This document shows, piece after piece, positions 1 through 21,887 of a stretch of 36,028 nt of DNA. The DNA comes from Bacillota bacterium (lineage in GTDB: Bacteria > Bacillota > Clostridia > Peptostreptococcales > Anaerovoracaceae): contig JAFWZZ010000032.1 in NCBI GenBank assembly GCA_017522185.1, forward strand, positions 1 through 36,028. Reading direction: 5' to 3'. The translations under genes were made by a program, and so were the position numbers. Below the pieces are notes generated by a model. The model had not been told where the DNA came from. It worked only from the letters and a program-made list of their open reading frames with translations, and ran no database searches. How positions within the stretch are numbered: position 1 is the stretch's first letter; the number at the start of each line of letters is the position of its first letter.

Positions 1-150
1 TGCCGCAGCGATACAAGACAGAATCAGTGGAACGTGAGGGTCAATACCCCATACCTTTACAGCCGCGATCATAGTTGCCAGTAATACAATAACAGGAATT
101 ACTGCGATAATGAAACTTGGCTTATGAGGTGTTCTTGTTTTCGTTTCCAT
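1..150 (-). CDS. NhaC-type Na+/H+ (or substrate/H+) antiporter, N-terminal fragment cut by the window edge
   Basis: Only the first 50 codons are visible; the gene runs off the left edge. The residues read a short basic N-terminus, a first hydrophobic helix (about residues 12-31) and the motif GIDPHVP. The complete antiporter gene at 20385-21887 has GQDPHIP at the same place after a similar helix, so this looks like a paralogue of that NhaC-family protein. NhaC relatives exchange Na+ for H+, and some (MleN) exchange organic acids, so the substrate cannot be assigned. The start is supported by GGGAGG placed 8 bases before the ATG. A consensus sigma-54 promoter lies about 75 bases upstream, so this gene is probably activated by the sigma-54 regulator encoded next to it. 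Confidence 0.8.
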   Translation of the reverse strand, partial: METKTRTPHKPSFIIAVIPVIVLLATMIAAVKVWGIDPHVPLILSCIAAA

Positions 151-215: not shown

Positions 216-226
216 AACATATACTA

Positions 227-244
227 ATGCAAAAGTCGTGCCAA
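227..244 (-). promoter_or_regulatory. sigma-54 (-24/-12) promoter of the antiporter gene
   Basis: On the minus strand the sequence is TTGGCACGACTTTTGCAT. It has GG and GC separated by exactly 10 bases and matches the RpoN consensus TGGCACG-N4-TTGCW at every defined position. It points toward the antiporter start at 150. Promoters of this class need an AAA+ activator, and one is encoded immediately upstream (344-2419). Confidence 0.88.
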
Positions 245-247
245 ATC

Positions 248-284
248 AAAAAATGCGGATTTTCAATAGAAAAACCGCATTTTT
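248..284 (-). terminator. Rho-independent terminator of the sigma-54 regulator gene
   Basis: On the minus strand AAAAATGCGG pairs with CCGCATTTTT around a 16-base AT-rich loop, and the stem ends in a run of six T. It sits between the regulator stop codon at 344 and the sigma-54 promoter at 227-244, which would insulate the two transcripts. The GC core is only about 4-6 pairs, so strength is moderate. The AT-rich sequence could also serve as a bend site. Confidence 0.6.
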
Positions 285-317
285 ATTCAAAATAAGTCGA
301 TTTCGAGCAGACTGTTG

Positions 318-332
318 CGACTTGTCAAGTCG
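318..332. promoter_or_regulatory. candidate upstream activator site for the sigma-54 regulator
   Basis: CGACTT-GTC-AAGTCG is a perfect 6+6 inverted repeat about 75-90 bases upstream of the -24 element, a usual distance for enhancer sites of sigma-54 activators. A further AAGTCGA half-site occurs about 25 bases nearer the promoter (near 294). Assignment to this regulator rests on position and symmetry only. Confidence 0.5.
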
Positions 333-343
333 AAACTGACTTG

Positions 344-2419
344 CTAAAGCTCGTATTTCTTTTTCTTTCTCGCAAACTGGGACTGAGTCATCTGCAGCGC
401 CTCGGCAGCCTTATAGGTGGAGCCGTACTTTTCCAATGCCTGCTGAAGCAGGGAGCGTTCAAAGGTTTCCACGCGATAGGCAAAGGAACTGTCTCCGTTG
501 ATATCAAGGCCGGCAGTTGCGCTGGTTTTCTCAATTTCAGATATCTTGCTGTATTCCAAAAGGACGTCTCCGGCTGTAATGACGTTTTCCCGGGAGCTGA
601 TCAGAAGCCTTTGGATTGTATTTTCAAGTTCACGTACGTTGCCCGGCCAGTTATAGTCCAGAAGCAGCTGTTTGGCCTCTTCGGAAAGTGTCTTCTCAAA
701 GCCGTACTGTTTTGAATACTTCTCCAAAAAATATTCAGCCAAAGGGATGACGTCCTCTAATCGCTCACGGAGAGAAGGCACGCGAAGCCGCACTACCGCC
801 AGTCTGTAGTAAAGGTCTTCTCTAAAAGATCCCTCCTGTACTGCCCGTAGCAGATTCTGATTGGTTGCCGCAATGATACGGACGTCGACTGTAGTTGTCT
901 TTTGTGCGCCTACCTTGTAGAACTCGCCCTCCTGGATAGCCCGGAGCAGTTTCGCCTGAATCTCGTATGGGATTTCTGTAACTTCGTCCAGGAAGAGGAT
1001 GCCGCCGTTGGCCATTTCGAAGAAGCCCTTCTTGCCTTCGCCGCTGGCACCGGTAAAGGCCCCCTTTTCATAACCAAAGAACTCGGATTCCATCAGTTCT
1101 TTTGGAATGGCGGCACAATTGACTTTGACATAAGGTGTGGCGTTTCTGTCACTCATCTTCTGCAGCATACCGGCCAGGACTTCTTTGCCAGATCCGCTTT
1201 CGCCTTCGATGATGACAGAACAGTTGAAACGGGCCACTTTTTCTATCTCGCTGGCAAGCTCCAGCATCTTCGGGCTCTTGCAGTGGAGTAGCTCATGAAT
1301 GGATTGCAGCTGATCGCTTCGTTCCGGTGGATTGATTTTGCTCCGTTCCCGCTTTGCCTGGTAAATCTTGGTCAGAAGATTGCCCAAATCTACGATTCTT
1401 TCCATATTCCTGCTGAGGAAGTCCATCATAAAATCATAGTAACCGCTGCTGTAGCCGGTGGCGCATTGCATGTACATATCCCTGTTTATGGCTTCCTGAA
1501 TATAGAGTGCAAGGGTATAGTTATTACTCAGGTTAGAGAAAAAGAGGGAGGCGCCTTCCTTTGCAGCCATGACGCTTACTGCTTCTGCACCCATCTGGTC
1601 GGCACAGTTGACGATGACATCGAAATACCTGCTGCCGTTCATGGTTACGTAGTCCACGCATTCGATGGCTGTCGCACGGTTCATGGAATACACTTCATCA
1701 AAGATGGAGTAGAAGAATTTATTTCGTTTCTGTTCCTCCCCTTCAGACATTTCCAATATTTTATCTCCATACAAAACGCCGACCAGGTCGCCGCCTTCTT
1801 TCATAGAACCGCTGACTGCCAGACTGTAAAGCATGGCTACCATCGGATTACTTCCGATAATCAGGACACGTTCCTTACCTGCCGCCAGCTTGCTGACATT
1901 ATGAATCGAAGCGGATTCTTCAAAGGCAACCAAAAGGAGATCCCATGGAATATCGGGATGTTTTCTGATGGTCGGACAGTGATTATATAGGATCGCATGG
2001 CCATCAACATCCAGATGTCCATAGGCATAGTCCACCTTATGAATTTTCTCGAGATAAAGAGGGAGTATGCTGGCCGAAATCGGGATGAAGATTTCGTCGC
2101 CAACTTTCAGATTGTTTTCGTTTGAGAATAGAGGACCGATTTCATCAACCACGCCCGCAATAAGACCACCTGTACCGGTATACGGATTGTGCAGTTTGCC
2201 TCTTTGAGAAACGAGCTGCATCACTCGTTCCCGGACTTTTGCATCTTCCCCGTAAGTTTCCATACAGATTTGATTGAAACTACCGTTTTCCAGATGAATC
2301 TTCACAACACGAAGGCGGAGTTCATCCGGATTGATTTCTTTGCTGTTATCTAGTTTCCATGCGTGAACCGGCAAAGTCTGACTGCCGTCCACACGTCTGC
2401 TTCCGATTATATTTTTCAT
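344..2419 (-). CDS. sigma-54-dependent transcriptional activator with an N-terminal 3,5-diaminohexanoate dehydrogenase-like domain
   Basis: This is a 691-residue activator of RNA polymerase-sigma-54. Residues 1 to about 350 resemble L-erythro-3,5-diaminohexanoate dehydrogenase (Kdd), an NAD(P) enzyme of lysine fermentation, in the N-terminal region and in the stretch RGKLHNPYTGTGG. The rest is a standard AAA+ activator: Walker A GESGSGKE (406-413), the sigma-54 contact loop GAFTGA (453-458), Walker B GGILFLDEV (472-480), and a Fis-type helix-turn-helix at the C-terminus (about 645-690). The Rossmann glycine motif of the Kdd-like part reads GSNPMVA, without the usual GxGxxG, so it may sense a ligand instead of catalysing. 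GGTGG precedes the ATG. The gene is divergent from the catabolic operon at 2650 and adjacent to a sigma-54 promoter. AAA+/Fis identity is certain; the Kdd relationship is from recognition by eye. Confidence 0.9.
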   Translation of the reverse strand: MKNIIGSRRVDGSQTLPVHAWKLDNSKEINPDELRLRVVKIHLENGSFNQICMETYGEDAKVRERVMQLVSQRGKLHNPYTGTGGLIAGVVDEIGPLFSNENNLKVGDEIFIPISASILPLYLEKIHKVDYAYGHLDVDGHAILYNHCPTIRKHPDIPWDLLLVAFEESASIHNVSKLAAGKERVLIIGSNPMVAMLYSLAVSGSMKEGGDLVGVLYGDKILEMSEGEEQKRNKFFYSIFDEVYSMNRATAIECVDYVTMNGSRYFDVIVNCADQMGAEAVSVMAAKEGASLFFSNLSNNYTLALYIQEAINRDMYMQCATGYSSGYYDFMMDFLSRNMERIVDLGNLLTKIYQAKRERSKINPPERSDQLQSIHELLHCKSPKMLELASEIEKVARFNCSVIIEGESGSGKEVLAGMLQKMSDRNATPYVKVNCAAIPKELMESEFFGYEKGAFTGASGEGKKGFFEMANGGILFLDEVTEIPYEIQAKLLRAIQEGEFYKVGAQKTTTVDVRIIAATNQNLLRAVQEGSFREDLYYRLAVVRLRVPSLRERLEDVIPLAEYFLEKYSKQYGFEKTLSEEAKQLLLDYNWPGNVRELENTIQRLLISSRENVITAGDVLLEYSKISEIEKTSATAGLDINGDSSFAYRVETFERSLLQQALEKYGSTYKAAEALQMTQSQFARKKKKYEL

Positions 2420-3936: not shown

Positions 3937-5997
3937 ATGAATCAAAAGTATGAGCACCTGTTTACACCTTGGAAAGTTGGGAATGTAGAGATCAAAAACA
4001 GAATCGTTATGTGCCCGATGGGCGGCACCTCCCTTTTCGGCTGGTTCGAACTGGGCGGCTGTCATTTTGACAAAGAAGCGGCAAAACTGTTTCTGGAAAG
4101 AGCCAATAACAACGTTGGGCTGATTATCCCGGGCATCGCACCGCTCCGTGACACATTCTGGGGCAAATGGCTCTGGCAGAATCCAAAGATGTTCGAAGAT
4201 CTGAAGGTATTCATGGATGAAATCCACAAGACTGATACAAAACTATTTGTACAGCTGACTGCCGGCATGGGCCGTTCCTGGGCCATCACAGAGCTGATTG
4301 CACCGCTGCATAAGAACAAGGTTACGAGAAAACTGATCAAGCCGATCATTGATACCAGCCATGAACTGGCTTGTCCAAGCCCACAGCCAAATCGTTGGGC
4401 CCACGACATCATTTGTCCGGAAATGACAGTAGAACAGATTCACGAAATCATCGAAGCTTTCGCAAAGACAGCAAAGCTTTGCAAGGATGCCGGTGTTGAC
4501 GGCGTAGAAGTACACGCAGTACACGAAGGTTATCTGTTAGACCAGTTTGCCATCGAGTTCTTCAATAAGCGCGAGGATGATTACGGCGGAAGCTTCGAAA
4601 ACCGTTACCGTTTTGCTGCAGAAGTCGTAAAGGCCATCAAAGCAGAATGTGGCGATGACTTCCCTGTTTCCTTACGTTATTCCGTAGAGTCCAAGCTGAA
4701 AGATTTCTGCTACGGGGCAATGCCTGGCGAAGACTATGTAGAAGTCGGCAGAGCTATGGAAGAATCTGAAAGAGCAGCAAAATACCTGCAGGACGCAGGC
4801 TATGATATGTTAAATGCAGACAACGGCACCTACGACTCCTGGTACTGGGCACATCCACCTATGTACATGCCGGAAAACTGTAACTTGGACGACGTGGCAC
4901 ACATTAAGAAGTTTGTGGATATTCCGGTTGTCTGTGCAGGCAGAATGGATCCTGAAACCGGTGCAAAGGCTGTCGCAGAGGGGCGCATCGACGGTATGGG
5001 CGTTGCCCGTCAGTTCCTGACCGATCCTGAATGGGTGACCAAGCTAATCGAAGACCGTATTGAGGATATCAAGCCTTGTATCTGCTGTCACAGCGGATGC
5101 TTCAACTTCTCTTCCTCCAAGGGTCACGCCAATACACAGGATCTGACTGACACCATGGGTCTGGCACGCTGCGCATTAAATCCAAAGACTATGCAGTCCA
5201 AGAAGTACAAGATCGAGAAGGCAAAGAAGGCGAAGAAGATTGCCATCATCGGTGGCGGCATCGGCGGTATGGAAGCTGCAATTGTCTGCGCACAGAGAGG
5301 CCACAGCGTAACTCTATATGAAAAGAGCGACAAGCTGGGCGGCGTATTTATTGCGGCAGCATCTCCATCTTTCAAGGAAAAAGACAGAGACCTGATTGCA
5401 TGGTATAACCGTGAAATCACAAAGCACCCAATCGAAGTAAAGTTAAATACTGAAGTTAAAAATGTGAGCGAACTGGATGCAGACGAAGTCATCGTTGCAA
5501 CCGGCGCAACAGCAAAGAATATCCCAATTAAGGGCGCAGACAAGGCCGTCGAAGCAGTGGATTATCTGCTGGGTAAGGCACCTGTCGGCGACAAAGTTGT
5601 CATCATCGGCGGTGGCCTGACCGGATGCGAAATTGCTTACGAATTATTCCTGGAAGGCAAACAGCCAACCATCGTGGAAATGATGGACGACCTGATTACA
5701 ACCAAGGGCATCTGCCTGGCAAACACAAGCTATCTCCGTGACTGCTTCAAGACCAATGAAGTGCCGGTACATCTGGAAACTGGTGTGGTAGAAATCGGTG
5801 ACGGCAAGGTGACAGTGAAAAACAAAGAAGGCAATATCTTTGATATCGAAGCAGATAATGTGATTCTGTCTGTAGGCTACAACCCTGCACCGGCAGCACC
5901 AAAGAGCAAGCACGTTCATGTGATTGGTGATGCTGCAAAGGTAGGCAATCTAAGAACCGTAATCTGGGGTGCATGGGACGTATGCATGAAGCTGTAA
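3937..5997 (+). CDS. NADH:flavin oxidoreductase / Fe-S enoate (2,4-dienoyl-CoA reductase-like) reductase
   Basis: This 686-residue protein has the three-part layout of FadH, BaiCD and clostridial enoate reductases. An OYE-type TIM barrel covers about residues 1-370, with the catalytic segment VEVHAVHEGYLLDQF near 190-204 and NKREDDYGGS after it. A 4Fe-4S site follows (C381, C384, C388, C412). Then come two dinucleotide folds with GGGIGG at 439 and GGGLTG near 558. Such enzymes pass electrons from NAD(P)H through FAD, Fe-S and FMN to reduce an activated C=C bond. The Cys spacing after C388 is 23 residues, longer than the 11 of FadH. It precedes the aconitase X genes by 24 bases, so its substrate may be an unsaturated product of that dehydratase (inference). 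Confidence 0.88.
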   Translation: MNQKYEHLFTPWKVGNVEIKNRIVMCPMGGTSLFGWFELGGCHFDKEAAKLFLERANNNVGLIIPGIAPLRDTFWGKWLWQNPKMFEDLKVFMDEIHKTDTKLFVQLTAGMGRSWAITELIAPLHKNKVTRKLIKPIIDTSHELACPSPQPNRWAHDIICPEMTVEQIHEIIEAFAKTAKLCKDAGVDGVEVHAVHEGYLLDQFAIEFFNKREDDYGGSFENRYRFAAEVVKAIKAECGDDFPVSLRYSVESKLKDFCYGAMPGEDYVEVGRAMEESERAAKYLQDAGYDMLNADNGTYDSWYWAHPPMYMPENCNLDDVAHIKKFVDIPVVCAGRMDPETGAKAVAEGRIDGMGVARQFLTDPEWVTKLIEDRIEDIKPCICCHSGCFNFSSSKGHANTQDLTDTMGLARCALNPKTMQSKKYKIEKAKKAKKIAIIGGGIGGMEAAIVCAQRGHSVTLYEKSDKLGGVFIAAASPSFKEKDRDLIAWYNREITKHPIEVKLNTEVKNVSELDADEVIVATGATAKNIPIKGADKAVEAVDYLLGKAPVGDKVVIIGGGLTGCEIAYELFLEGKQPTIVEMMDDLITTKGICLANTSYLRDCFKTNEVPVHLETGVVEIGDGKVTVKNKEGNIFDIEADNVILSVGYNPAPAAPKSKHVHVIGDAAKVGNLRTVIWGAWDVCMKL

Positions 5998-6021
5998 GAA
6001 TAGGATAGGAGGAGAAATGCT

Positions 6022-7296
6022 ATGCTATTAACAAAAGAACAACAGGCCATTCTCGACGGTGCACAAGGCGAGACCATGGCAAAGGTTATGAAGACCATGG
6101 TAATGTACGGCGATGCTTTCGAAGCAGAAAAGCTGGTGCCAATCACCTCTGAATATAACCACCTGGTAACATCTTTCGGGCTGAAGGTGATGTCACCGGT
6201 GTACGATTTGATGCAGCAGCTGCTGGATGCAGGCGTTATGTCCGGCCAGAAGTTTTCCGTTGACCCTCGTCCGCTGGATAAGAACGTACCAGCAAGCTTC
6301 CTGCAGAACTTCGTGTTTAACAAGTTCATGTACACCAAGCAGGACTTCTATGAAGACCAGTTGGAAAAGCTAGGACTGAAAGACGACAAGGCATTTACCT
6401 GCACCTGCTACATGGACGAAGTGGGAAACCAGCCAAAGAAGGGGGACATCCTGTCCTGGGCAGAGTCTAGTGCAGTGGTATACGCAAACTCCGTTTTAGG
6501 AGCAAGATGTAACCGTAACTCCGGAATCATCGATATCATGGGTTCCATCGTTGGCTTTGTGCCATACTTTGGACTCTTGACTGATGACGGACGAAAGGCA
6601 GACTGGGTCATCAAAATCCAGACAACAAAGAAGCCTGAAGCACAGTTGTTAGGTTCCGCCATCGGCGTGAAGGTTATGGAAGACGTGCCTTATGTTATTG
6701 GTCTGGATCAGTGGATCGGTACAGAACTAAACGACGAAGCAAAGTCTTATCTGAAGGATTTCGGTGCAGCAACTGCGTCTAACGGTGCGGTTGGCCTGTA
6801 TCATATCGAAAACCTGACACCGGAAGCGGTAGAACTGGGCGAAGACCTGATCCGTCCGGATGCGAAGGAATATATCATCGACGATGCAGAACTGCAACGC
6901 GTACAGGACAACTATCCTGTCATTTGGAAGAATCCGGACGCAGCACCAAAGCTTTGCTTCCTTGGATGCCCACATCTCTCTCTGCAGCAGATGAAAGACT
7001 GGACAGACAAAATTGAAGCAGGTCTGGCAGCCAGCGGTAAGAAGAAGGTTGTCATCCCTACTGTGCTGACAGCAGCCCCTGGCGTGCTGGAAGCCTTCAA
7101 TCAGACAGAATACGCAGACAGACTGAAAGCAACCGGTGTAATTACCTCTTACATCTGTCCGCTGATGTATATGAACAATCCGCTTTGCAAAACCATGCCG
7201 GTTATCACATCTTCCAACAAGCTGCGCACATATACCAGCGCAAGATACTACAAGGATGATGAAATCCTGGCAGCAATCACAAAGGGAGGTAAGTAA
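6022..7296 (+). CDS. aconitase X catalytic (large) subunit, DUF521 family
   Basis: This 424-residue protein matches the large domain of aconitase X (AcnX), a dehydratase family with a labile Fe or Fe-S centre. Known members dehydrate cis-3-hydroxy-L-proline to 1-pyrroline-2-carboxylate in bacteria or mevalonate 5-phosphate in archaea. Recognisable segments are NSVLGARCNRNSG (157-169), FLGCPHLSL (313-321) and SYICPLMYMNNPLC (376-389), which supply candidate metal-ligand cysteines C163, C316, C379 and C389. The swivelling domain is a separate gene immediately downstream, so this is the two-subunit form. GGAGG precedes the ATG by 9 bases. The operon shows no mevalonate gene, so a hydroxy amino acid substrate is more likely than phosphomevalonate, but that is inference. 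Confidence 0.88.
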   Translation: MLLTKEQQAILDGAQGETMAKVMKTMVMYGDAFEAEKLVPITSEYNHLVTSFGLKVMSPVYDLMQQLLDAGVMSGQKFSVDPRPLDKNVPASFLQNFVFNKFMYTKQDFYEDQLEKLGLKDDKAFTCTCYMDEVGNQPKKGDILSWAESSAVVYANSVLGARCNRNSGIIDIMGSIVGFVPYFGLLTDDGRKADWVIKIQTTKKPEAQLLGSAIGVKVMEDVPYVIGLDQWIGTELNDEAKSYLKDFGAATASNGAVGLYHIENLTPEAVELGEDLIRPDAKEYIIDDAELQRVQDNYPVIWKNPDAAPKLCFLGCPHLSLQQMKDWTDKIEAGLAASGKKKVVIPTVLTAAPGVLEAFNQTEYADRLKATGVITSYICPLMYMNNPLCKTMPVITSSNKLRTYTSARYYKDDEILAAITKGGK

Positions 7297-7298
7297 AG

Positions 7299-7742
7299 AT
7301 GAGACAGTTTCAAGGAAGAGTTGTAACCCCTGGAACCGTGACAGCGGAAGCAGTTGTTACAAAACAGGGCTTTAATACACTGGCATCCCTGCAGATGGCA
7401 CTTCAATTTGGTGATAAACAGGTAAAATGCGGCGACCAGAATAACGAAGAACTTCACGGCAAGCCTTTGCTTGGCAAGGCGTTATGTCTGCCACAGACCA
7501 TCGGCTCTACAACTGGCGGCCTGGTTCTCTACTGTGCCTGCGCACTGGAAAAGAATCCTGCATGCCTGTTGTTTGCAAACCACATCGACTCCCTGGCAGC
7601 AGCCGGCGCTGTACTGGCAGATGTATGGGTAGACGGCGTATCCATGCCGGTAGTTGACTGTCTAGGCGACGATTTTCTGGAATATGTCAAAGATGGCATG
7701 ACTGTGACCATCAAAGAAGACGGCATTGTAGAAGTCGCATAA
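7299..7742 (+). CDS. aconitase X swivel (small) subunit, DUF126 family
   Basis: The 147 residues match the small swivel domain that completes the aconitase X active site. The family signature around the catalytic serine reads GSTTGGLVLY (about 69-78, with S70 the likely base), followed by the ANHIDSLAAAGAVLADV stretch typical of DUF126. It begins 2 bases after the large-subunit stop, and GGGAGG lies inside the end of that gene, so the pair is translationally coupled and probably made in equal amounts. It is followed closely by a DUF362 gene. Confidence 0.88.
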   Translation: MRQFQGRVVTPGTVTAEAVVTKQGFNTLASLQMALQFGDKQVKCGDQNNEELHGKPLLGKALCLPQTIGSTTGGLVLYCACALEKNPACLLFANHIDSLAAAGAVLADVWVDGVSMPVVDCLGDDFLEYVKDGMTVTIKEDGIVEVA

Positions 7743-7756
7743 AGGAGGAACGCGAT

Positions 7757-8626
7757 ATGAAATCCAAAGTATTTTTCTCAAGAGAAATTACACCGGAAAA
7801 GGTGGTTGAACTTTTTGAGATGACAGATAAGAAGTTAGAAGGCAACATCGCCATCAAAGTTCATTCTGGAGAAGAAGGAAATCAGAACTTCCTAAAGCCT
7901 GACTTCTGGAAACCTGTTGTAGCTCATGTGGGCGGTACTGTTGTAGAGTGTAACACCGCTTACGATGGAGAAAGAAACGAAACGGCGAAGCACCTGAATC
8001 TCTTCAAGAAACACGGCTGGAGCGTACACTTCAAGGTAGATCTGCTGGACGCAGAAGGTCCTGATCTGGAACTGGATATCCCGGAAGGAAAGCAGATTCA
8101 GAAGAACTTCGTGGGCAAGAATCTGGCGAACTACGATTCTATGCTGGTGCTGTCCCACTTCAAGGGACATCCGATGGGGGGCTATGGCGGCGCGCTGAAG
8201 CAGTTATCCATCGGTGTAGGATCTTCTTTCGGCAAAGCCTACATCCATGGTGCCGGTGAACCGGAAAAAATCTGGACAGCTGACCATGATTCTTTCTTAA
8301 GATCCATGGCCGATGCAGCAAAATCCGTAGTGGACTACTTTGATGGTAAAATCGTTTATGTTAATGTGATGAAGAACATGTCTGTTGACTGCGACTGCTG
8401 TGCAGTAGCGGAAGACCCTTGCATGAAGGACATCGGTATTCTGGTTTCTACAGACCCGATTGCCATCGACCAGGCCTGCATCGATCTGGTATATGCGCAA
8501 GTCGACGATCCGGGCAGAGACCACCTGCTTGAGCGAATCGAATCCAGAAACGGCGTGCTGACCATCGAGGCAGCAGCAGAGCTGGGTTACGGCAGCAGAG
8601 AATATGAATTAGTAGAAGTAAAATAG
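7757..8626 (+). CDS. DUF362 domain protein without ferredoxin domain
   Basis: The 289 residues match DUF362: an N-terminal KVHSGEEG segment, the central LSHFKGHPMGGYGGALKQLSIG, and DIGILVSTDPIAIDQACIDLVY near 225-247. Many relatives carry an added 2x4Fe-4S ferredoxin domain; this one does not, but it has a cysteine cluster (C212, C214, C215, C222) that could hold metal or a cluster. DUF362 proteins have no general assigned reaction. AAAGGAGG stands 8 bases before the ATG. As the last gene of the operon, ending just before a strong terminator, it probably works with the dehydratase and the reductase. Confidence 0.85.
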   Translation: MKSKVFFSREITPEKVVELFEMTDKKLEGNIAIKVHSGEEGNQNFLKPDFWKPVVAHVGGTVVECNTAYDGERNETAKHLNLFKKHGWSVHFKVDLLDAEGPDLELDIPEGKQIQKNFVGKNLANYDSMLVLSHFKGHPMGGYGGALKQLSIGVGSSFGKAYIHGAGEPEKIWTADHDSFLRSMADAAKSVVDYFDGKIVYVNVMKNMSVDCDCCAVAEDPCMKDIGILVSTDPIAIDQACIDLVYAQVDDPGRDHLLERIESRNGVLTIEAAAELGYGSREYELVEVK

Positions 8627-8640
8627 CAAAAAAACATAAA

Positions 8641-8673
8641 AAACAGAGGATTTTTTTGAAAATCCTCTGTTTT
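8641..8673 (+). terminator. Rho-independent terminator of the aconitase X operon
   Basis: A 14-base perfect stem (AAACAGAGGATTTT with its complement) encloses a 4-base loop and ends in TTTTG, 14 bases after the DUF362 stop. Its near-symmetrical A and T flanks allow it to act in both directions. Confidence 0.85.
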
Positions 8674-8765
8674 GTTGCAAATGCCACAATCTTCCTCGGG
8701 TAAACGTGTTAATATATGGTCAAGATAAAGATAAAACAAACACTCAAATTCGAGGAGGTATAAAT

Positions 8766-9071
8766 ATGTTAAACTTAAATGTAAATAAAGAGAACTTCAA
8801 ATCCGAAGTGTTAGAAAGTAATAAACCGGTACTGTTAGATTTCTTCGCAAGCTGGTGCGGACCATGCAAAATGTTGTCCCCTATCATCGACGAAATCGCA
8901 GAAGAAAGAGAAGATGTGAAAGTTGTAAAACTGGACATCGATGAACACCCTGAACTGGCAGCACAGTTCGGCGTGATGAGTGTACCTAGCTTATTCGTCA
9001 TCAAAGGTGGCGAAATCGCAAACAAAGCATTAGGCGTAAGACCAAAGCAGCAGATTTTAGGACTGCTGTAG
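8766..9071 (+). CDS. trxA: thioredoxin
   Basis: This is a 101-residue classical thioredoxin with the redox site W30-C31-G-P-C34, the buried Asp in LLDFFASW, and the cis-Pro in SVPSLFVI. It reduces protein disulfides and in amino-acid fermenters also feeds Stickland reductases. I chose the ATG at 8766 because GAGGAGG lies 7 bases upstream and the fold begins there; the in-frame ATG at 8706 has no ribosome site and would add 20 unrelated residues. Terminators stand on both sides, so it is transcribed alone, although it sits beside the catabolic operon. No thioredoxin reductase gene is present in the window. Confidence 0.95.
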   Translation: MLNLNVNKENFKSEVLESNKPVLLDFFASWCGPCKMLSPIIDEIAEEREDVKVVKLDIDEHPELAAQFGVMSVPSLFVIKGGEIANKALGVRPKQQILGLL

Positions 9072-9113
9072 ACTTATAGAAAACTAAAAATGATCGTCTC
9101 CTTAAATCAACAC

Positions 9114-9144
9114 AAAAAACAGAGCGGAAAGGCTCTGTTTTTTT
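9114..9144 (+). terminator. Rho-independent terminator of the thioredoxin gene
   Basis: ACAGAGC pairs with GCTCTGT around a GGAAAG loop, and a run of seven T follows. The A-run on the 5' side extends the pairing. Confidence 0.85.
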
Positions 9145-9195
9145 GCTTTTTGAAGACGCACATATTATAATGAAAGCGGGAAAAGGAGGTAATCT

Positions 9196-9690
9196 ATGGA
9201 TTCATATACAAAACTACGAAACATGACGGCCATCTACATCACGCGGGGAGAAGAAATGCTGATGCTCTACCGTGTTGGCTCCAGAGTCGTGGACCCTTCC
9301 TGGTGCGGGATCGGTGGTCATTTTGAGGAATCGGAATTAAACGATCCTTATGCCTGCGTGCTGCGGGAAATGGAGGAAGAGACGCCAATCCGCCGGGAAA
9401 TGCTGGAAAATCTACAGTTCAAGTATGTGACCCTCCGTCTGAAGAAGGGAGAAATCCGTCAGAATTACTATTACTTTGCATCGCTAAAAGACGATGTGGA
9501 AGTTTCGCTGGAATCCGACGAGGGGAAACTCCGCTGGGTGCCTCTTTCGAAAGTCATGGAGAAGGAAATGCCGCTTACCGCAAAGTTTATGCTGGAGCAT
9601 TACCTGAAAACGGGCCGGTATGATGACTGCCTGTACAGCGGTGTAACCTGTGAGGATAAAATGATTTTCACGGAGCTGAAAGAATTCTGA
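9196..9690 (+). CDS. Nudix hydrolase
   Basis: The protein has 164 residues. The Nudix helix is visible as GGHFEESELND followed by CVLREMEEET (about residues 37-59), with the key REMEEE metal ligands. The spacing between GG and RE is two residues longer than the commonest form (GGxxExGESxxxAAxRE), a variant I recognise from a clostridial subgroup. Nudix enzymes cleave a nucleoside diphosphate linked to another group; the substrate (for example an oxidised nucleotide) cannot be named. AAAGGAGG precedes the ATG. The gene is transcribed alone and converges on the pyrimidine operon with a shared terminator. Confidence 0.85.
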   Translation: MDSYTKLRNMTAIYITRGEEMLMLYRVGSRVVDPSWCGIGGHFEESELNDPYACVLREMEEETPIRREMLENLQFKYVTLRLKKGEIRQNYYYFASLKDDVEVSLESDEGKLRWVPLSKVMEKEMPLTAKFMLEHYLKTGRYDDCLYSGVTCEDKMIFTELKEF

Positions 9691-19435: not shown

Positions 19436-20110
19436 ATGTTAAATTTTGATTTACACAACCATAGACCGCTGCGGGAAATCGTATATGAGCAGCTGAAACG
19501 ACAGATTCTGACTGGCGAAATCACACCGGGAACCCGTATGATGGAAGTAGAACTGGCAGATGAGATGGGCGTTTCCAGAACACCGGTCAGAGAAGCGATC
19601 AGAAAGCTGGAAAAGGAAGGACTGGTCACTATCGAACCGAGAAGAGGCGCCTATGCTTCTGATATCTCTGTAAAGGATATGGTCGATACGATGGAGGTTA
19701 GAGAGCATCTGGAGTCCCTTGCAGCATATCTGGCAGCCCAGACCATGACGGAAGAGCAGAGGGAAGAGCTGGAACGTATCACCAACGGTTACACCAACGC
19801 CATCCATAACAACAACATGGAGGAGATGATCCATTACGATGAGCTTTTCCACAAGGGTATCGTTAACGCCAGCGGCAACAAGACACTGATTCAGATCAGT
19901 GAAACCGTACAGGAACTGGCATTACGTTTCCGTTATCTGTACTACGATGATTTGTCCAGATACGGCTCCATGCCGATGGAGCACAAGCAGATTCTGGAGG
20001 CCATCGAAAACAAGGATCCGGATGCAGCAAAGGAATGTGCAAAGACCCATGTGAAAAGACTGAAGGACTTCGTCATCCGCGAAGGGGAAAATGCATTTAA
20101 GCATGAATAA
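19436..20110 (+). CDS. GntR family transcriptional regulator, FCD (FadR-type) subfamily
   Basis: The 224-residue protein has a winged helix at about 10-75 (LREIVYEQLKRQILTGEI, then VSRTPVREAIRKLEKEGLV) and an all-helical FCD ligand domain at about 80-215, with metal/ligand residues in DELFHKGIV and EHKQILEAI. Such regulators respond to small carboxylates. TAGGAG precedes the ATG. It lies 13 bases after ispE and ends with a strong terminator. Its target is unknown; the antiporter gene downstream is one candidate. Confidence 0.92.
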   Translation: MLNFDLHNHRPLREIVYEQLKRQILTGEITPGTRMMEVELADEMGVSRTPVREAIRKLEKEGLVTIEPRRGAYASDISVKDMVDTMEVREHLESLAAYLAAQTMTEEQREELERITNGYTNAIHNNNMEEMIHYDELFHKGIVNASGNKTLIQISETVQELALRFRYLYYDDLSRYGSMPMEHKQILEAIENKDPDAAKECAKTHVKRLKDFVIREGENAFKHE

Positions 20111-20129
20111 ACCGATATGAAGATAAACC

Positions 20130-20162
20130 ACAGGGCGCATCTCGTATGCGCCCTGTATTTTT
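20130..20162 (+). terminator. Rho-independent terminator of the ispE-gntR unit
   Basis: An 11-base perfect stem ACAGGGCGCAT/ATGCGCCCTGT with a CTCGT loop is followed by ATTTTTAT. Confidence 0.9.
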
Positions 20163-20175
20163 ATGCATTATGAAA

Positions 20176-20240
20176 AGTAGTTCAGCACTTCGCCCTGTTA
20201 AAGGGATGAGGGCGAAACCCCTTGAAATTACTGGTTTTTT
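20176..20240 (+). ncRNA. candidate structured RNA ending in a T-run
   Basis: Two nested stems are visible: outer AGTA/TACT plus TTCA/TGAA, inner TTCGCCCT/AGGGCGAA (8 pairs), with internal loops between them, then GG and six T. The inner region has an alternative pairing (AAGGG with CCCTT, or AGGG with CCCT). It lies after a complete terminator and before the antiporter promoter. I see no promoter for it and cannot match it to a known riboswitch. It may be a second terminator or a small regulatory RNA. Confidence 0.4.
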
Positions 20241-20262
20241 GTGGATTTTCTGAAAATAGTCC

Positions 20263-20291
20263 TTGACACTATCTAGCATAAATAGTAAAAT
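20263..20291 (+). promoter_or_regulatory. sigma-A promoter of the second antiporter gene
   Basis: A perfect TTGACA and TAAAAT are separated by 17 bases. The predicted start near 20298 gives a leader of about 87 bases. Confidence 0.85.
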
Positions 20292-20297
20292 AGCGAA

Positions 20298-20384
20298 TGT
20301 TGTCTGCTTCAGACAAAATCTGCGTTATGATAAGCAGAAATGCATAACTAATATTATTTTAATGTATGAAAGGAAAATGAAAAA
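20298..20384 (+). promoter_or_regulatory. structured leader of the antiporter mRNA
   Basis: The leader contains the hairpin TTGTCTG-CTT-CAGACAA and a second possible stem, TCTGC/GCAGA or alternatively GTTATG/CATAAC, which are mutually exclusive. AAAGG lies close to the ATG at 20385. It could stabilise the message or act as a regulator of translation; it matches no riboswitch class I know. Confidence 0.45.
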
Positions 20385-21887
20385 ATGACAGAACAGAAAA
20401 AAGCTGTACGTCTGCCGAACAAAATTGAAGCATTAGCTCCAATCGTTGTTCTGCTGGCACTCATGATCTCCAACTATGTTCTGGGATGGGGCCAGGACCC
20501 ACATATCCCAGTATTAATCGCTTGTGCAGTAGCTATGGGCGTAGGTAAGCTGTGTGGCGCATCCTACCAGGATATGCTGACTGGCTTCTTAGAAGCTGTT
20601 AACATGTCCATGGAAGCTATCATCATCATCCTGTGCGTAGGTTGTATGATTGGTTCCTTCACATGGTGTGGTACAATCCCAGCTGTAGTATTCTACGGTC
20701 TGAAGTTATTAAGCCCAGCAATCTTCTTACCATTCGCATGCGTACTGTGTGCAGTAGTAGGTATCTCCCTGGGTTCCGCTTGGACAGTAACTGCTACTTT
20801 AGGTGTAGCATTCATGGCTATCGGCCAGACAATGGGTCTGTCTCCTGCTCTGATCGCTGGTTGTATCTTATCCGGCGCTTGCTGCGGCGACAAGTTCTCC
20901 CCAATGTCCGACTCCACAAACCTGGCTGCAGGTTCCGCACAGACTGGTCTGTTTGACCACGTAGCTGCTATGATCACAACTACATTCCCATCTCTGGTAA
21001 TCGCAGTTGTAATCTACGCTGTATTAGGTGTAAACGCATCCGGTACTTATGACCCAACTTTAGCAAACGAATTATCCCAGGCTATCGTTGACCACTACAG
21101 CTACATGAGCCCAGTGCTGTTAATCCCAGTACTGTTAATCGTTGTAGTAGCATTAATGAAGATTCCTGCAATCCCATCCGTACTGTTAGTATCTGCAGTA
21201 GGCTGCGTATTCGCTGTAATCTTCCAGGGTGCAACATTCTCTGACTGTATCACAATGGTACACTACGGTTACGAAGCTGAAACTGGCAACGAACTGTGCG
21301 ACGCTTTAGTAAACAGAGGCGGTATGGACTCCATGCTGTGGACAAACAACTTAGTAATCATCGCTGTTGGTTTCGGTGGTGTATTACAGAAGATCGGTAT
21401 GGTAGAATCCCTGTTAGGCGGCCTGATCAAGAGAGTAAAGACTCCATTCCAGTTAGTAGTAGTTACTATGATTACAGGTGCATTCTGTATCACTACAATG
21501 TGCGACCAGTACTTAGGTCTGATCATCCCATCCACAATGTACAAGGATAAGTATGACGAAATGGGTCTGGGTAGAAACTTCCTGTCCAGAACTCTGGAAG
21601 ACTGCGGTACTCTGTGGTCCCCACTGGTTCCATGGTCCTCCTGCGGTGCATACCACGCTGGCGTTTTAGGCGTATCCACTTTTGCATACCTGCCTATGAC
21701 ATTCATGAACCTGATTAACCCAGTATTCGCATTAGTAACTGTTAAGTTAGGCATCAACATCCTGTACGCTGATGGTTCCAGAAGAAACATCTTCGGCAAG
21801 ATGGTGAAGAAGGCTCCTGCTGGCGCTCCTGCTGATGCACACGCAAAGGCTATGGCTGCTTTAGAAGCAATGAGAGCTGCAAAATAG
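20385..21887 (+). CDS. NhaC-type Na+/H+ antiporter family protein
   Basis: This is a 500-residue integral membrane protein with about 11-12 hydrophobic segments. NhaC-family features include GQDPHIP in the first loop, ISLGSAWTVTATLG, CGDKFSPMSDSTNLAAG and the C-terminal DCGTLWSPLVPWSSCGAYHAG. It exchanges sodium, or possibly an organic anion or amino acid, against protons or sodium at the cytoplasmic membrane. Codon use is strongly biased (GTA, TTA, CCA), as in highly expressed genes. It has its own promoter and structured leader, unlike the paralogue at the left edge, which is under sigma-54. It ends in a GAPADAHAKAMAAL tail. Confidence 0.9.
   Translation: MTEQKKAVRLPNKIEALAPIVVLLALMISNYVLGWGQDPHIPVLIACAVAMGVGKLCGASYQDMLTGFLEAVNMSMEAIIIILCVGCMIGSFTWCGTIPAVVFYGLKLLSPAIFLPFACVLCAVVGISLGSAWTVTATLGVAFMAIGQTMGLSPALIAGCILSGACCGDKFSPMSDSTNLAAGSAQTGLFDHVAAMITTTFPSLVIAVVIYAVLGVNASGTYDPTLANELSQAIVDHYSYMSPVLLIPVLLIVVVALMKIPAIPSVLLVSAVGCVFAVIFQGATFSDCITMVHYGYEAETGNELCDALVNRGGMDSMLWTNNLVIIAVGFGGVLQKIGMVESLLGGLIKRVKTPFQLVVVTMITGAFCITTMCDQYLGLIIPSTMYKDKYDEMGLGRNFLSRTLEDCGTLWSPLVPWSSCGAYHAGVLGVSTFAYLPMTFMNLINPVFALVTVKLGINILYADGSRRNIFGKMVKKAPAGAPADAHAKAMAALEAMRAAK

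Follow-up and report, generated by a model that had tools for sequence, protein, structure and literature searches.

Can a metabolic enzyme become the sensor of a transcriptional activator, and what would such a regulator read and control? The question is raised by R1, a gene near one end of a 36,028-nucleotide stretch (hereafter the window) of contig JAFWZZ010000032.1, assembly GCA_017522185.1, from a Bacillota bacterium of the family Anaerovoracaceae. A preliminary description read R1 as a sigma-54 activator whose amino-terminal half derives from 3,5-diaminohexanoate dehydrogenase (Kdd) of lysine fermentation, and as a possible member of a regulator class of amino acid fermenters. We consider it probable that R1 is a sigma-54 activator using a former Kdd to sense a lysine-pathway diamino acid and driving an nhaC-type transporter gene, and that relatives of R1 have switched sigma factor. 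Not foreseen in that description were R1's sigma-54 promoter and its nhaC-type target, a paralogue (R2) in the lysine cluster of the same genome, and the loss of the GAFTGA motif in relatives.

The sensor of R1 and its enzyme relatives

R1 has the features of a sigma-54 enhancer-binding protein (EBP) of the NtrC class: an AAA+ domain (PF00158, E = 1.8e-66) with both Walker A and Walker B motifs, a GAFTGA loop, a DNA-binding helix-turn-helix (HTH; PF18024, 33.1 bits against a cut-off of 27), a nearby -24/-12 promoter, and rpoN (PF04552) in its own genome. No PAS domain is present among the 12 Pfam families matched at E ≤ 1. Homology of the sensor, residues 1-350, to Kdd extends over the whole length of the enzyme, both in sequence and in the fold of a structure model, so that the Kdd origin and the intact AAA+/GAFTGA/HTH module of the preliminary description are both borne out. 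Judged by its sequence, R1 is a genuine sigma-54 activator that carries a new type of sensor, a variant of the known one-component kind of EBP.

The sensor has diverged from the enzyme at the cofactor site. With the NCBIfam model of Kdd (NF052381, cut-off 200) R1 scores 122.6 bits, and a stand-alone Kdd encoded elsewhere in the same genome (L011:9529-10569) scores 262.5 bits. The dinucleotide loop GxxGKxG occurs in only 3 of 100 fusions, against 85 of the 90 stand-alone Kdd sequences taken from the same loci; R1, which reads GSNPMVA at this position, is not one of the three. Those three (L056:6893-9010, L150:4043-5743 and L151:9986-11593) retain the loop as GANGKxG or GAGGKxG; binding of NAD(P)(H) by their sensors is still possible, and they resemble an early stage of the fusion. 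In L151, which is from Cohnella kolymensis, the fusion frame is split. Kdd sequences have 148 columns with a constancy of 95% or more, and 27 of these are retained by 95% or more of the fusions as well, including G74, K75, N78, T81, G84, G85, S115, E279 and E309 (R1 numbering). R1 E309 and G322 align with E310 and G323 of the Cloacamonas enzyme CaKdd, in which E310 is described as hydrogen-bonding the NADPH amide, with G323 close by (PMC9902596). The R1 site has thus retained the nicotinamide-end residue E309 and lost the glycine loop, and the R1 sensor very probably no longer functions as an enzyme. R1 differs from Kdd (CaKdd; PDB 7dl0, 7dl1, 7dl3 and 7dl7) in its fusion to AAA+ and HTH domains, in the lost loop and in its score below the NCBIfam cut-off.

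The fusion family and the lysine genes

Homologues with the same domain order as R1 are numerous. Family counts rest partly on a scan of named genomes covering the best 80 of 499 loci, 77 of which contain 78 fusions; the other three are cut by a contig end (L106), broken in frame (L147) or unresolved by picking of open reading frames (ORFs) (L100). After removal of fusions identical over residues 100-300 to an earlier one, 100 non-identical fusions were left. Three of these are shorter than 600 residues (L088, cut by a contig end, L150 and L151) and were omitted from the trees, which have 97 rows. GAFTGA or a one-letter variant is present in 88 of the 100 and absent from 12. In 74 fusions, here called kam-linked, kdd or kamA lies within the next two ORFs, which bears out the proposal of a regulator class of amino acid fermenters.

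At a threshold of 1e-5 the sensor matches 44 of 61 genomes of relatives, its own included, with Kdd enzymes among the matches. Carriers identified in the scan of named genomes include Emergencia timonensis and Aminicella lysinilytica, both of the Anaerovoracaceae, together with Anaerovorax, Sinanaerobacter, Bacilliculturomica and C. kolymensis. One set of 38 fusions comprises 32 from the window's own family and six from another family of the same order; eight of the other 62 rows have an NCBI family (three Anaerovoracaceae, three Peptostreptococcaceae, one Eubacteriaceae and one Paenibacillaceae). A sample of 291 genomes of the class gave 23 with a profile match at 1e-30: six, four of them in the window's family, have a frame longer than 600 residues and thus a fusion, and the other 17 have enzyme-sized frames only.

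The genome of R1 encodes a second fusion, R2 (contig C11, 30023-32089, minus strand; L011:12024-14090), which is 39% identical to R1 and lies directly ahead of two kdd genes, kamA and a further row of genes. One of the two kdd genes and kamA pass the NCBIfam cut-offs, and the genes after kamA we take to be kamB, kamC (MutS-like), kamD, kamE and two CoA-transferase subunits. In many kam loci the gene divergent from the regulator is kal, encoding 3-aminobutyryl-CoA ammonia lyase (in one example 189.8 bits with NF052388, cut-off 160).

Promoters were located with a simple -24/-12 score with a maximum of 16.4, sites of at least 14 being counted. In regions of 350 nt, 56 of the 64 kam-linked fusions with GAFTGA have such a promoter; all 56 have it downstream, 42 have one on the kal side, and none occurs in shuffled regions; extending the regions to 700 nt raises the number to 61 of 64, with 1.9% for shuffled regions. 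Five fusions (L042, L050, L094, L150 and L151) have promoters of 14.9-15.9 at 346-526 nt behind the regulator. L094 and L104 had been considered as an intermediate state, an idea dropped because L094 has a promoter within 700 nt and the eight apparent promoter-less cases shrink to three.

These regions also share an inverted repeat, GAAC-N8-GTTC (extended, GAACCG-N4-CGGTTC), found downstream in 49 of 67 regions and upstream in 27 of 58; the best dyad of one shuffled set is found in four and two, respectively. In the genome of R1 the extended operator occurs exactly only twice, at C11:28714 and C11:29969, both within the kam locus; a third site there, with one mismatch, lies between kal and R2. 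Five more places elsewhere in the genome match with one mismatch and a reversed control gives six, so that the one-mismatch list alone is not significant. Because of these operators and promoters, the main members of the family, situated between kal and kdd-kamA, would control lysine fermentation through GAACCG-N4-CGGTTC, with R1 as a specialised branch. R1 itself was rejected as the kam regulator, since the kam locus lies with R2 on C11 and the R1 region scores low for the kam operator.

Several loci have unusual arrangements. On the kal side of fusions with GAFTGA, all 34 operator sites scoring at least 10 are at -63 or -64 relative to the predicted sigma-54 start, and by eye the regulator's own promoter may overlap that region. 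L041:8071-12312 and L049:2258-6423, from another family of the same order, contain tandem Kdd-sensor activators ahead of kamA and CoA transferases. L042:8980-11052 and L050:8916-10988 form a further branch beside a second type of kdd (VVIGAGKAGLL), with neighbours that resemble a TRAP transporter by size and start and -24/-12 sites of 15.9 at 424-429 nt behind the regulator. The fusion of genome G031 (L037, L076 around 8459-9544, and L147) has an in-frame TAA in the sensor and its AAA+ part in a separate frame.

The probable target region of R1 and the proposed signal of its sensor

About 100 nt behind the R1 stop codon, ahead of an nhaC-type gene, is a -24/-12 promoter (Table 1). The exact pattern TGGCAYRNNNNTTGCW occurs at eight sites in the assembly, the R1 promoter among them, and its reversed control at three. 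Directly behind the stop codon stands a candidate operator, CAAGTC-N6-GACTTG, which has a single exact copy in the 2.12 Mb assembly, the pattern having been derived from that same site. The nearest relative of R1 among the collected fusions, L077 (64% identity in the sensor; support of 100 for the fork joining the pair), likewise has a promoter, of 15.9, directly behind the regulator. This pair and the kam-linked branch are neighbours in the tree (support 86, drawn open), and only two of 247 genomes of the family, the genome of R1 and G105, match R1 at 1e-92. It is strongly supported by the layout of this region that R1 acts on the -24/-12 promoter ahead of the nhaC-type gene.

Table 1. Positions of R1, its domains and the adjoining target region in the window
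Feature	Position	Strand	Remarks
R1, sigma-54 EBP with Kdd-derived sensor	344..2419	-	691 aa
R1 sensor domain, residues 1-350	1370..2419	-	3,5-diaminohexanoate dehydrogenase fold; degenerate glycine loop VLIIGSNPMVAML
R1 AAA+ sigma-54 interaction domain, residues 380-545	785..1282	-	Walker A GESGSGKE; Walker B GILFLDE
R1 GAFTGA loop, residues 453-458	1046..1063	-	
R1 AAA+ lid, residues 551-632	524..769	-	PF25601
R1 C-terminal HTH, residues 650-691	347..472	-	HTH_50; HTH_8 22.1, cut-off 22
Candidate R1 operator CAAGTC-N6-GACTTG	326..343	.	directly behind R1 stop; putative function
Further half-site AAGTCGA	294-300		near candidate operator
Inverted repeat between candidate operator and promoter	249..284	-	probably R1 terminator; putative function
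Sigma-54 promoter TTGGCACGACTTTTGCATTA	225..244	-	core 228-243; score 16.4, the maximum
nhaC-type transporter gene, 5' end	1..150	-	50 codons in window; runs off contig end

The nhaC-type label rests on 44% identity, over the first 50 codons, to the NhaC encoded at 20385-21887. A near-identical nhaC 5' end, again of 50 codons, occurs at the end of another contig (C24:69704-69853), preceded by lysS (592 bits; cut-off 428) and by an antiporter gene for basic amino acids (503.5 bits with TIGR00905, cut-off 409); the exact pattern search of the assembly found no -24/-12 site on C24. The window contig and C24 both terminate within the nhaC repeat, as a recent duplication of nhaC would make them do. 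A separate branch of eight fusions (L045, L047, L052, L054, L059, L068, L153 and L156) is divergent from an NhaC-type gene, with one small ORF intervening in L156, and all eight have a promoter of at least 14.2 on the NhaC side. The identities shown between NhaC proteins of this branch and the second NhaC of the window are 20-22%, and scans of two of them gave TIGR00931 scores under the cut-off.

On the plus strand, the window's second NhaC (TIGR00931, 396.7 bits, cut-off 370) follows a GntR/FCD regulator (19436-21887). A probable operon at 3937-8626, also on the plus strand, encodes an Oxidored_FMN-type flavin oxidoreductase, a two-gene aconitase X (AcnX; PF04412 and PF01989) and a DUF362 protein, with AcnX, its swivel domain and DUF362 at 6022-8626. 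We found no link to hydroxyproline, which the preliminary description had considered as a ligand; the AcnX genes (6022-7742) are on the other strand from R1, beyond two other genes.

On the reading proposed here, the old substrate pocket would be occupied by lysine, beta-lysine or 3,5-diaminohexanoate, all of them diamino acids of lysine fermentation, and the ligand-bound sensor would let the AAA+ ring assemble on the candidate operator. The ring would then remodel sigma-54 RNA polymerase at the promoter, the nhaC-type transporter would be expressed, and uptake of the sensed amino acid would presumably increase, the sign of the response and the substrate transported both being postulated. Several observations weigh against this reading. 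R1 deviates at four of the 27 kept columns (G12, H135, A170 and A290), and since E309 matches a residue that contacts the cofactor, its conservation may reflect cofactor binding instead of diamino acid binding. With one mismatch the candidate operator pattern, itself derived from the site, occurs at four places against three for the reversed control. It is not clearly common to L077, where only GACTTAA repeats, and the gene behind L077 (9753-11108, plus strand) encodes a class-III aminotransferase of the glutamate-1-semialdehyde type rather than NhaC, so that the R1 branch is without a constant target. The nhaC gene is readable for 50 codons only, the lysS neighbour of its twin is a hint about the substrate and no more, and the antiporter beside the twin nhaC scores highest with the arginine-ornithine model TIGR03810, below the cut-off. 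In the wider family, three of the 64 kam-linked fusions with GAFTGA (L041_10228, L049_2258 and L104) have no scoring promoter within 700 nt; the first two each precede a second fusion.

Some of these points would fit a sensor that has drifted to a metabolite outside the lysine pathway, for example one derived from ornithine or arginine, with R1 controlling a transporter for another cationic amino acid. The R1 sensor is merely 29-42% identical to those of the 74 kam-linked fusions, the R1 region is without the kam operator (best scores 8 and 7 of 12), and the highest match of the antiporter, below the cut-off, points the same way. There is also a parallel in OrdR of Clostridioides difficile and its relatives, an EBP predicted to control an ornithine oxidation operon that ends in nhaC (PMC6615313, PMC7438776), whose nhaC is named as an ornithine/arginine transporter (PMC6615313); as OrdR is described there, it resembles R1 in being an EBP with nhaC as predicted target, its pathway being ornithine oxidation. 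The position of the twin nhaC behind lysS and the kam cluster in the genome speak against such drift, which we regard as unlikely. The preliminary description had suggested that the sensor might read the NADH state. Rex-like redox sensing offers a model for this, in which the Rossmann half would bind the dinucleotide and couple the NAD(P)H/NAD(P)+ ratio to the AAA+ motor. The fold does include the nucleotide half of the dehydrogenase, E309 and G322 match the NADPH-amide residues of CaKdd as described (PMC9902596), and three fusions keep the dinucleotide loop, but its near absence from the other fusions, R1 among them, goes against the idea. With the loop lost yet the NADPH-contacting glutamate kept, cofactor binding by R1 is unlikely, and redox sensing as the function of the sensor is distinctly improbable.

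The sensor might instead be a docking surface that forms mixed oligomers with true Kdd, whose occupancy would be the signal. Enzyme-regulator complexes are known in principle, and sensor and kdd genes adjoin in most of the collected kam loci. No kdd gene lies beside R1, however, and the residues kept throughout the family (K75, N78, T81, S115, E279 and E309) are also kept by the enzymes, for which a pocket is a better explanation than a new surface; we consider docking very unlikely. Least credible is a bifunctional R1 that is still a dehydrogenase: the fold and several invariant enzyme residues are retained, but the lost glycine loop and the sub-cut-off score with NF052381 make this extremely improbable. 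Sensing of a lysine-pathway diamino acid is the reading that we retain.

GAFTGA loss and sigma factor use among the relatives

The 12 fusions without GAFTGA, R2 included, have varied sequences in place of the loop. R2, which reads GREEPDANGEKRKG at this position, has no sigma-54 promoter and has kept the operator; four others (L048, L062, L064 and L072) have also lost the Walker B aspartate. Ten of the 12 are kam-linked, and none of these ten (nor any of the 12) has, up to 700 nt to either side, a -24/-12 site of at least 14; among kam-linked fusions with GAFTGA 61 of 64 do. Fisher tests of the association, which ignore ancestry, give 6e-8 for 350 nt and 4e-10 for 700 nt. A control for ancestry (independent pairs, 350-nt calls) found only two pairs on starred branches and no significance, so the Fisher values are not independent evidence. 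By parsimony there are four changes of the trait, two of them forced by well-supported branches, and trees of the sensor only and of AAA+ with HTH (quick method) agree. R2 falls among regulators of its own genus that have GAFTGA, the nearest being 85% identical in the sensor and 81% in AAA+ and HTH. The sigma factor itself is still encoded: rpoN is present in the five other GAFTGA-less carriers tested (G001, G003, G010, G012 and G023) and overall in 16 of 17 genomes, the exception (G002) being 84% complete.

The operator is kept at 10 or more of 12 letters in all ten kam-linked fusions without GAFTGA, compared with 1% of shuffled regions. Ahead of kdd, among regions with a placeable kdd start, a sigma-70-like site of at least 10 of 12 is found in 9 of 10 regions without GAFTGA, 1 of 41 with GAFTGA and 8-9% of shuffled regions; both the score and the threshold of 10 were chosen after some of the GAFTGA-less regions had been inspected by eye, and this comparison is therefore not blind. 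The exception is the R2 locus of the R1 genome, L011, where the site scores 9. The kal side gives a less marked contrast, with sites of at least 10 in 10 of 12 regions without and 18 of 58 with GAFTGA.

All ten GAFTGA-less regions have an operator (at least 9 of 12) whose centre lies -90 to -92 from the predicted start, and five have a second at -121 to -123, whereas the 69 operators at sigma-54 promoters are scattered over about -80 to -330. This distance was noticed after the score had been set and was then tested on 53 regions with and 10 without GAFTGA; with the best sigma-70-like site, it is found in 1 of the 53 regions with GAFTGA and in 2.1% with shuffled regions. Comparison of the stretch from operator to -35 among six rows taken from different groups gives identities of 20-48%, against 28% expected from composition, so the distance of -91 is not simply inherited sequence. 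Several relatives, including R2, appear to have exchanged GAFTGA and sigma-54 promoters for promoters of sigma-70-like type, relative to which the unchanged operator stands at -91; R2 would pass on the same signal through sigma-70 polymerase as an ordinary fixed-distance activator.

Known systems share parts of this picture. KamR of Bacillus thuringiensis is described as a sigma-54 activator beside kamA that controls it through a -24/-12 promoter and has a PAS sensor (PMC4428206). On that description it resembles the family in adjoining a lysine 2,3-aminomutase gene with a -24/-12 promoter and differs from R1, whose sensor is Kdd-derived and which has no PAS domain. EBPs without GAFTGA that act at sigma-70 promoters are reported in Rhodobacter capsulatus NtrC, Caulobacter NtrC and VspR (PMC10274813), to which the title of a further reference adds TyrR. 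Like NtrC and VspR, R2 and the 11 other fusions have lost the sigma-54 contact loop and kept sensor and HTH; unlike these and TyrR, R1 itself keeps GAFTGA, and the Kdd-sensor family contains both states next to each other, sharing operator and targets, with the operator at one fixed distance from the sigma-70-like promoter. A survey of 490 EBPs from 57 Clostridiales (Nie et al. 2019; PMC6615313) likewise describes one-component EBPs with intracellular sensors that control fermentation. The sensors it names are PAS, GAF, HPr, PrpR_N, ACT, CBS, Fer4, Fe-hydrogenase, FeS, V4R and RR, with none of dehydrogenase type among them, in line with the earlier suggestion that the R1 sensor is unlike those of most known EBPs. 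We found neither a Kdd-type sensor nor a sigma switch with kept operator in one family in the open-licence literature of PubMed Central.

Taken together, it seems somewhat more likely than otherwise that Kdd was captured as the sensor of an activator guarding its own pathway, and that the sigma factor then changed more than once among gut bacteria that are close relatives, GAFTGA and -24/-12 sites being lost together while GAACCG-N4-CGGTTC was kept and sigma-70-like promoters with the operator at -91 gave a fixed-distance activator. R1 would be a paralogue that kept sigma-54 while its control was redirected, through a new operator, to a duplicated transporter gene.

The sensor of R1 would represent a class for sigma-54 activators whose ligand is predictable from the ancestor enzyme, tied to lysine fermentation in the Anaerovoracaceae and related Clostridia. 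More interesting than R1 alone is the family with its apparent sigma switches. It holds both states in living relatives with the same targets and operator, members of one genus included, and these side-by-side states make the conversion of an EBP to a sigma-70 activator directly testable.

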